Origin: Noviherbaspirillum sedimenti
Lineage (GTDB): Bacteria; Pseudomonadota; Gammaproteobacteria; Burkholderiales; Burkholderiaceae_D
Reading direction: 5' to 3'
Assembly: GCF_003590835.1 (NCBI RefSeq)
Contig: NZ_QYUQ01000002.1
Location: forward strand, 3,472,001 to 3,536,000
Length of the DNA stretch: 64,000 nt
Shown: positions 62,140 through 64,000 of the stretch, in pieces
Layout: every line of letters starts with the position of its first letter
Position numbering within the stretch: the first letter of the stretch is position 1
Program-made: the position numbers and the translations under genes
The notes under the pieces: generated by a model
Seen by the model: only the letters and a program-made list of their open reading frames with translations
Database searches by the model: none
Told to the model about the DNA's origin: nothing

Positions 62140-62169
62140 CTTACATCAGGCCTTGTTCCGGCGTATAAT
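62140..62169 (+). promoter_or_regulatory. metH leader promoter
   Basis: A perfect -10 TATAAT (62164-62169) is preceded at 18 bases by CTTACA (62140-62145), matching TTGACA at four positions. Transcription would begin near 62176. Confidence 0.65.
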
Positions 62170-62174
62170 TTTTG

Positions 62175-62298
62175 TAGCGCCGATTTGATTAAGCCAGTCA
62201 AACCCAGCTTGCGGGCGCCGGGGTAGAGTCCCACTATAAATACTGCTAAAGCGGCCCAGGCATGAACCCGGACCCGCATTGCAGGCCGGGTTTTTTAT
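62175..62298 (+). ncRNA. Structured metH leader with competing terminator and antiterminator stems (riboswitch/attenuator candidate)
   Basis: A leader of about 124 nt. It can form a hairpin TTTGATT (62184-62190) with AGTCAAA (62196-62202), and GCGCC (62177-62181) with GGCGC (62214-62218). The 3' end is a terminator: AACCCGG (62265-62271) with CCGGGTT (62286-62292) then T-rich TTTTATTTT. Upstream TGCGGG-CG-CCGGG (62210-62222) is complementary to CCCGG-A-CCCGCA (62267-62278), which includes the terminator's 5' arm, so only one structure can form. This is the architecture of a riboswitch or attenuator. It lacks the GCCACTG box of cobalamin riboswitches and the conserved core of SAH riboswitches that I know. 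A trans-acting sRNA is the other option. Confidence 0.6.
62265..62298 (+). terminator. Leader terminator upstream of metH
   Basis: A 7-bp stem AACCCGG/CCGGGTT with a short inner extension, then TTTT and an A+T-rich run. It lies about 80 bp before the metH ATG and would block readthrough unless disrupted. Confidence 0.75.
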
Positions 62299-62378
62299 TT
62301 TATAATTTTATAAATTGTGGGAAAGAGTTTGCGAGGCGCCGCCGTGCGCCGAGTTACTCTGTCCCCAACTGACCAGAC

Positions 62379-64000
<1,622 letters not shown>

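Follow-up and report, generated by a model that had tools for sequence, protein, structure and literature searches.

The leader in front of metH

The window, i.e. the whole stretch of 64,000 nucleotides from Noviherbaspirillum sedimenti that was analysed, ends inside the gene metH for the cobalamin-dependent methionine synthase. The gene product matches TIGR02082 with 1708 bits and also NF007024, both scores being far over the cut-offs, and PF02574 and PF00809 are matched as well. The gene is preceded by a leader with the features given below, all on the forward (+) strand.

62140..62169, +: promoter-like site CTTACA-18 nt-TATAAT (10/12 matches; TATAAT at 62164-62169)
62177..62181, +: P1 5' strand GCGCC, pairing with 62214-62218; its outer pair is G-C, U-A or A-U in relatives
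62182..62186, +: third strand GAUUU in L1, corresponding to SAM-II G8-U12, of which U10-U12 are pocket nucleotides (list in PMC3764141)
62184..62202, +: inserted L1 hairpin, UUUGAUU (62184-62190) with AGUCAAA (62196-62202), overlapping the pocket uridines
62204..62212, +: P2 pseudoknot 5' strand CCAGCUUGC, partner of 62245-62254
62210..62278, +: candidate alternative (antiterminator) pairing, 62210-62215 with 62273-62278 and 62218-62222 with 62267-62271; exact, alone not significant
62214..62218, +: P1 3' strand GGCGC, partner of 62177-62181
62221..62232, +: inserted L3 hairpin (P3), GGG (62221-62223) with CCC (62230-62232), covarying in relatives
62238..62241, +: AAAU in L3, the A-minor strand of SAM-II, present in 59/59 long leaders
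62243..62254, +: P2 3' strand and pocket, C-U-GCUAAAGCGG
62264..62296, +: intrinsic terminator, hairpin 62264-62293 and T6 62291-62296
62379..64000, +: metH, an open reading frame of 1251 aa in the genome that continues past the window end

In our interpretive reading of the register, P2 consists of 62211-62212 with 62245-62246, 62209-62210 with 62248-62249, 62207-62208 with 62251-62252 and 62204-62205 with 62253-62254, and 62213 is able to pair with 62243. The metH start codon lies 125 nt past the core, with the terminator in between. The first-pass annotation had described a leader of ~124 nt led by a -10 box and ending in an intrinsic terminator, and both elements are indeed there, at a leader length of ~120 nt. 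A simple hairpin scan missed the terminator because its loop limit was 8. The promoter-like site alone is not beyond shuffles, i.e. one per 1.5 kb with a shuffle mean of 0.7.

Two other elements flank the leader or interrupt the distance to the gene. A Betaproteobacteria toxic sRNA (RF02278, 62027-62090, 69.2 bits) lies just 5' of the metH promoter and is the single match near the leader when the window is scanned with Rfam at gathering level. The genome contains 8 copies that pass the cut-off, and the sRNA is also found 5' of the metH leader in 5 of the 13 loci scanned (L001, L007, L009, L010 and L011). Between terminator and start codon there is an imperfect palindrome of 47 bases at 62319-62365, GGGA-AGAGT...ACTCTGTCCC, which is found 12 times in the genome (19 matches when counted by strand, and none with the reversed sequence) and was not seen in the L010 leader; it therefore looks like a mobile palindromic repeat.

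A SAM-II core before metH and metX

Positions 62177-62254 hold P1, GAUUU, CUUGC, AAAU and GCUAAAG, i.e. the SAM-II pseudoknot core, the four motifs being those that we take to be the SAM-II landmarks. We numbered the pocket on the window through what we assume to be the sequence of the crystal structure. Base triples quoted in PMC3764141 were used along with it, and all 13 pocket nucleotides given there as completely conserved (U10-12, U20, U21, G22, C23, G42, C43, U44 and A45-47) are found in the leader. The P1 stem and the H-type P2 pseudoknot are both present, as is the genomic context of SAM-II, namely a methionine gene, a promoter just 5' of P1 and a terminator 3' of P2; in the original SAM-II description, promoter and terminators have these same positions relative to P1 and P2 (PMC1273637). 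Compact aptamers have no P3 and a short L1, whereas the metH leader carries hairpins in L1 and L3, and hence we call it a variant of SAM-II and not a plain member. What the first-pass annotation took for two upstream hairpins forming a possible aptamer is resolved here into P1 and P2 of SAM-II plus two inserted hairpins.

A compact element of the same genome lies directly 5' of metX, whose product matches NF047916 (homoserine O-succinyltransferase) with 682 bits at a cut-off of 560. This element scores 29.3 bits with RF00521 (E 2.3e-4), under the cut-off of 36. The metH leader and the metX element share GCGCCGATTTGAT, CAGCTTGCGGGCGC, ATAAATAC and GCTAAAGCG in the same order, four identical blocks of 13, 14, 8 and 9 bases, 44 in total.

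Rfam does not recognize the metH leader, because of the hairpins inserted in L1 and L3. With E values up to 10, RF00521 gives 10.8 bits against its cut-off of 36 and in a shifted register, and this match taken alone would not convince. The model of SAM-II with long loops (RF01726) has no match at the leader and its sole genome match, elsewhere, has 18.1 bits against 44 (E up to 10); the SAH (RF01057) and cobalamin (RF00174) riboswitch models have no match listed at the leader up to E 10, nor has SAM-V in the permissive scan. The first-pass annotation could not match the leader to cobalamin or SAH riboswitches. This was right, and the class overlooked was SAM-II, which Rfam missed too. An Rfam match to a known class, which it had named as a ground for dropping the novelty, was not obtained over a gathering cut-off at the leader.

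We built a covariance model from 27 compact elements, one of them the metX leader of the same genome, and this model finds the window leader with 27.8 bits (E 2.8e-7, a rough value owing to short calibration), the next best match in the 64 kb having 9.5 bits. In the alignment the P1 3' strand of the model is placed on 62228-62232 with two non-standard pairs, and CUUGC falls inside a 38-base insertion, so the score rests on the GAUUUGAU and AAAUAC-GCUAAAGCG strands and not on P1. The model also finds all 16 long-form loci tried out of the 55 described below, with similarly rough E values of 8.1e-9 to 0.022. The metH leader is thus homologous to compact SAM-II elements.

The core is common among relatives. 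We found one core pattern in 14/60 genomes, counting the one studied here, while its reversal matched nothing, a looser one in 137/245 genomes of the family with 17 matches to the reversed pattern, so that some of these looser matches are due to chance, and another one in 200/399 genomes of the order with none reversed. RF00521 exceeds its cut-off anywhere in only 4/60 sampled genomes. Set against the 200/399, which come from a different sample, this indicates a blind spot of Rfam. After 6 of 111 pattern matches (L042-L046 and L052) had been dropped by eye as chance, 105 elements were retained among the matches listed, and tblastn with the window MetH and the same-genome MetX assigned 40 of them to metH and 47 to metX, the other 18 being before other genes or unassigned. 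In the family pattern search, 60 rows without a locus were picked by hand among the matches listed. The metH elements with a long L1 number 35 and span 13 genus labels of the window's family among the matches listed; L024, L061 and L038 have compact forms with neither hairpin 5' of metH.

A metH-type pattern was also found in 55 stretches of a collection of named records, and metH is downstream in 52 of them, the other three having too little sequence. By title, 16 are 'Oxalobacteraceae bacterium', 11 Noviherbaspirillum, 6 Herminiimonas, 4 Oxalicibacterium, 2 Lacisediminimonas, 1 Herbaspirillum and 1 Paucimonas, with 14 broader or other titles. NCBI taxonomy places Noviherbaspirillum and Lacisediminimonas in Oxalobacteraceae and Paucimonas in Burkholderiaceae. 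The 35 long leaders of the family search and 24 named-record loci left after duplicate removal make up the 59 long leaders used below (L141 has no gene assignment). AAAU and the P1 5' strand GCGCC, both outside all search patterns, are present in 59/59 of them. The alignments comprise A1 (the 35 out of 40 metH elements that have a long L1), A3 (21 leaders taken from A1), A2 (27 hand-picked compact elements of about 33) and a named-record alignment with 39 of the 55 loci.

Among the aligned metH leaders (n = 21) no pair of P1 or P2 varies, and P1 is constant in the 39-match set as well; hence there is no covariation signal in these helices there. The outer pair of P1 does vary outside metH, being G-C, U-A (3 strand pairs) or A-U (L173 and L175). 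Among 121 P1 strand pairs, 103 are GCGCC/GGCGC, 3 TCGCC/GGCGA and 1 GCGCU/GGCGC; the other 14 were judged by eye to be chance matches or wrong restarts. The A-U type comes from the sequences of L173 and L175, where the elements are very short: their P1 is ACGCC/GGCGU, L3 is reduced, and the AAAU seen in the rest is missing. The outer pair of P2 is C-G in 35 and U-A in 3 of the 38 scorable metH elements (2 more are not of the form), U-A in 26, U-G in 1 and non-standard in 19 of the 46 scorable metX elements, and Watson-Crick in 3/7 scorable elements of other genes. The named-record search pattern demanded CCAG and GCGG, and for this reason these loci were left out of the P2 outer-pair count.

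Inserted hairpins, terminator and alternative pairing

The inserts fold better than dinucleotide shuffles, with z scores, uncorrected for relatedness, of -13.0 for L1 (27 distinct) and -11.5 for L3 (35) in metH leaders, and of -4.6 for L1 (19) and -12.2 for L3 (30) in metX leaders; for each insert set 0/200 shuffle means are as low. The two hairpins are separable, since L029 and L030 are without the L1 hairpin and L087 is without P3. P3, which has three pairs only in the window, covaries. Across 21 leaders 4/5 pairs have both-side changes, with 19 cells against 7.0 in shuffles, and across the 39 named-record matches (37 distinct), whose alignment was fitted to the structure, 5/5 pairs are changed on both sides, with 32 cells against 13.0 (sd 2.7) and 0/500 shuffles as high. 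The excess is in cells and score only: the numbers of pairs with both-side changes (4 vs 4.0 in the 21 leaders, 5 vs 4.5 in the 39 matches) and the pair types are not over shuffles. Unpaired P3 cells amount to 17-18% in both alignments. Covariation in relatives, which the first-pass annotation had named as the check, is hence there for P3 in cells and score; P1 and P2 do not vary in metH leaders, and the metH L1 hairpin has one-sided changes only in the metH leader alignments.

The L1 hairpin involves the pocket itself. In isolated folds of the metH L1 the pocket uridines are mostly paired (0.73, 0.92 and 0.96), while the values for long metX L1 loops are 0.01, 0.28 and 0.66. The average uridine pairing exceeds 0.5 in 40/42 distinct metH L1 loops vs 0/19 long metX loops and 1/12 compact ones, and TCAA is kept in 41/42 metH L1 loops, L132 being the exception. 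Since SAM binding needs the pocket uridines in the triplex, the metH L1 hairpin should, judging from the folding, compete with SAM binding. Among metX leaders, 25 (L047-L051, L053-L057, L062-L069, L072, L074, L075, L078 and L100-L102) also have a long L1 and a long L3, but their hairpins differ in sequence and leave U10 and U11 mostly unpaired, and seven further ones (L109-L115) have a long L3 only.

The -10 box and the terminator are kept along with metH. TATAAT is found 11-15 bases 5' of GATTT in 57/59 long leaders, and of the other two L171 has just 9 upstream bases. A terminator with an adjoining T-run is present in 59/59, with a mean domain energy of -17.4 and a weakest one of -12.1 kcal/mol. 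The proposal of the first-pass annotation that the leader is a cis-acting riboswitch terminating transcription is supported. A second TATAAT at 62302-62307 directly follows the terminator T-run in the window and may serve metH as a weak internal promoter.

For the metH leaders the antiterminator is the least secure part of the model. The perfect complementarity of 62210-62222 to 62267-62278 that had been noted, over blocks of six and five bases, is exact (TGCGGG 62210-62215 with CCCGCA 62273-62278; CCGGG 62218-62222 with CCCGG 62267-62271). Folded as a whole, the leader does not surpass shuffles (z -0.80; 45/200 as good); it is the conservation of core, -10 box and terminator among relatives that exceeds chance. 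Using transcripts that end before the terminator 3' arm, we computed how far arm and loop of the terminator pair with the aptamer, and obtained 0.63 for the window vs 0.47 in shuffles (p 0.15-0.20). The 59 metH leaders give 0.440 vs 0.413 (sd 0.020), which is not significant with 3/20 shuffle sets as high; 33/59 are over their own shuffle mean and 8/59 are at p <=0.1. The corresponding value for metX leaders (46/47 scorable) is 0.567 vs 0.350, with 0/20 shuffle sets as high. Short exact complements between the terminator arm and core strands are enriched, however: those of at least 6 bases reach the CUUGCGGGCGC side in 18/59 metH leaders (shuffles 17%), the GCUAAAGCGG side in 23/59 (shuffles 8%) and either core side in 36/59 (shuffles 24%). 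The window and its nearest relatives have CUUGCGGG as the partner, and in many other relatives the terminator loop contains CGCUUU, which is complementary to AAAGCG in the pocket strand (GCUAAAGCGG), so the antiterminator partner turns over. The antiterminator pairing first proposed is thus exact in the window and similar in its genus. We reject a family-wide fixed helix, given that the pairing in metH leaders is not over shuffles and the partner strand varies.

Proposed control of metH and related elements

We consider it likely, with a probability of roughly 0.84, that the metH leader is a SAM-sensing riboswitch with a SAM-II core enlarged by the L1 hairpin and P3, and that it is switched OFF by termination. 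An OFF switch of this kind has been proposed for SAM-II (PMC1273637, PMC2258182). SAM binding, the direction of control and the antiterminator we infer rather than compute directly. When SAM is plentiful, the core (P1, P2 and the triplex) would form and its strands would be occupied; the terminator would then form and transcription would stop ~120 nt past the start, leaving metH off. When SAM is scarce, a core strand (CUUGCGGGCGCCGGG in the window) would instead pair with the 5' arm and loop of the terminator, and metH would be transcribed. We speculate that the L1 hairpin, by pairing the pocket uridines, may weaken or delay SAM binding. It is a tentative idea, and a rather doubtful one, that this hairpin (UUUGA...UCAAA) might even act as a second, ligand-gating switch helix that SAM must break. 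Compared with the compact metX switch in the same cell, the metH switch would then respond at higher SAM or with a delay, so that the pathway would be shut off in tiers, and with P3 the metH RNA would stand between SAM-II and SAM-V in its architecture.

The scaffold could alternatively have been re-tuned in the metH leaders for SAH, methionine, homocysteine, folate or cobalamin. The pairing of pocket uridines in 40/42 metH loops vs 0/19 long metX loops would suit such a change, and SAH riboswitches control metH in Comamonadaceae (PMC4239095). However, all 13 pocket nucleotides are retained, and 1 mM SAH or methionine gave no modulation of SAM-II (PMC1273637); we regard a re-tuned ligand as improbable. 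The new sensor of methionine, homocysteine, folate or cobalamin suggested at first pass has to be given up too, as the ligand core is that of SAM-II.

Even less probable in our view is that the leader serves chiefly as an sRNA gene with its end at the terminator, and that metH is read from elsewhere, e.g. from the TATAAT at 62302-62307. The leader does have its own promoter-like site and terminator, and a terminated SAM-II leader (RZ) has been described as an sRNA in S. meliloti (PMC9373788), but metH is downstream in 52/55 stretches and the core is of a cis-acting aptamer type. We give the lowest probability to an attenuator controlled by a protein or the ribosome without any metabolite, which would merely resemble SAM-II. 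The lack of significance of the antiterminator in metH leaders would be in line with it, but the invariant segments are those of the SAM-II pocket, and an element with 44 common core bases stands before metX in the same genome.

The leader shares with SAM-II (SAM_alpha, RF00521) the P1 and H-type pseudoknot, the GAUUU / UUGC / AAA / GCUAAA core, the -10 box just before P1, the terminator after P2 and the methionine genes, and differs in the L1 and L3 hairpins, the metH target and a score under the RF00521 cut-off. SAM-II with long loops (RF01726), comparable as judged by its name alone, is listed for Bacteroidetes and marine sequences (PMC2864571). In SAM-V, as in the metH leader, a P3 hairpin separates P1 from the last P2 strand (PMC6061858), and metagenomes contain SAM-V 5' of metH (PMC2704228). 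However, SAM-V is described as a marine class acting on translation, with a Shine-Dalgarno sequence in or next to the 3' P2 strand; in the metH leader the start codon is 125 nt away from the core, a terminator lies in between, and there is the extra L1 hairpin.

SAM-II has already been noted in beta-proteobacteria (PMC2258182, PMC2704228), while Leyn 2014 found SAM_alpha solely in Rhizobiales and Rhodobacterales among the genomes studied (PMC4239095). We found no report of SAM-II before metH in the open-access articles searched. The metH leader is SAM-II in a structurally altered form and with a target for which we found no precedent in these articles, and it adds methionine synthase to the SAM-II targets found there and names a likely regulator of metH for this group. 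The core tolerates hairpins in both loops, one of them at the position of the SAM-V P3, which bears on the relation between SAM-II and SAM-V. Leyn 2014 also gave an unassigned metXZ element before metX/metZ in beta-proteobacteria, with an alignment of six conserved regions (PMC4239095). By its description, it resembles our elements in its genes, pseudoknot, terminator and GC-rich regions proposed as antiterminator, and in the consulted parts of that paper it is not identified as SAM-II and metH is not named as a target. Since SAM-II-like elements are found before metX, this orphan element is probably SAM-II, and an identity can be offered for it.

Other arrangements of the core were observed among the relatives. 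L018 has a tandem pair of SAM-II-like cores at 1516-1800, the second one past the terminator of the first one. In L177, L179 and L182 the SAM-II-like elements have GCUAAAGAGG a few bases 5' of the ATG, and they are apparently of a translational type.
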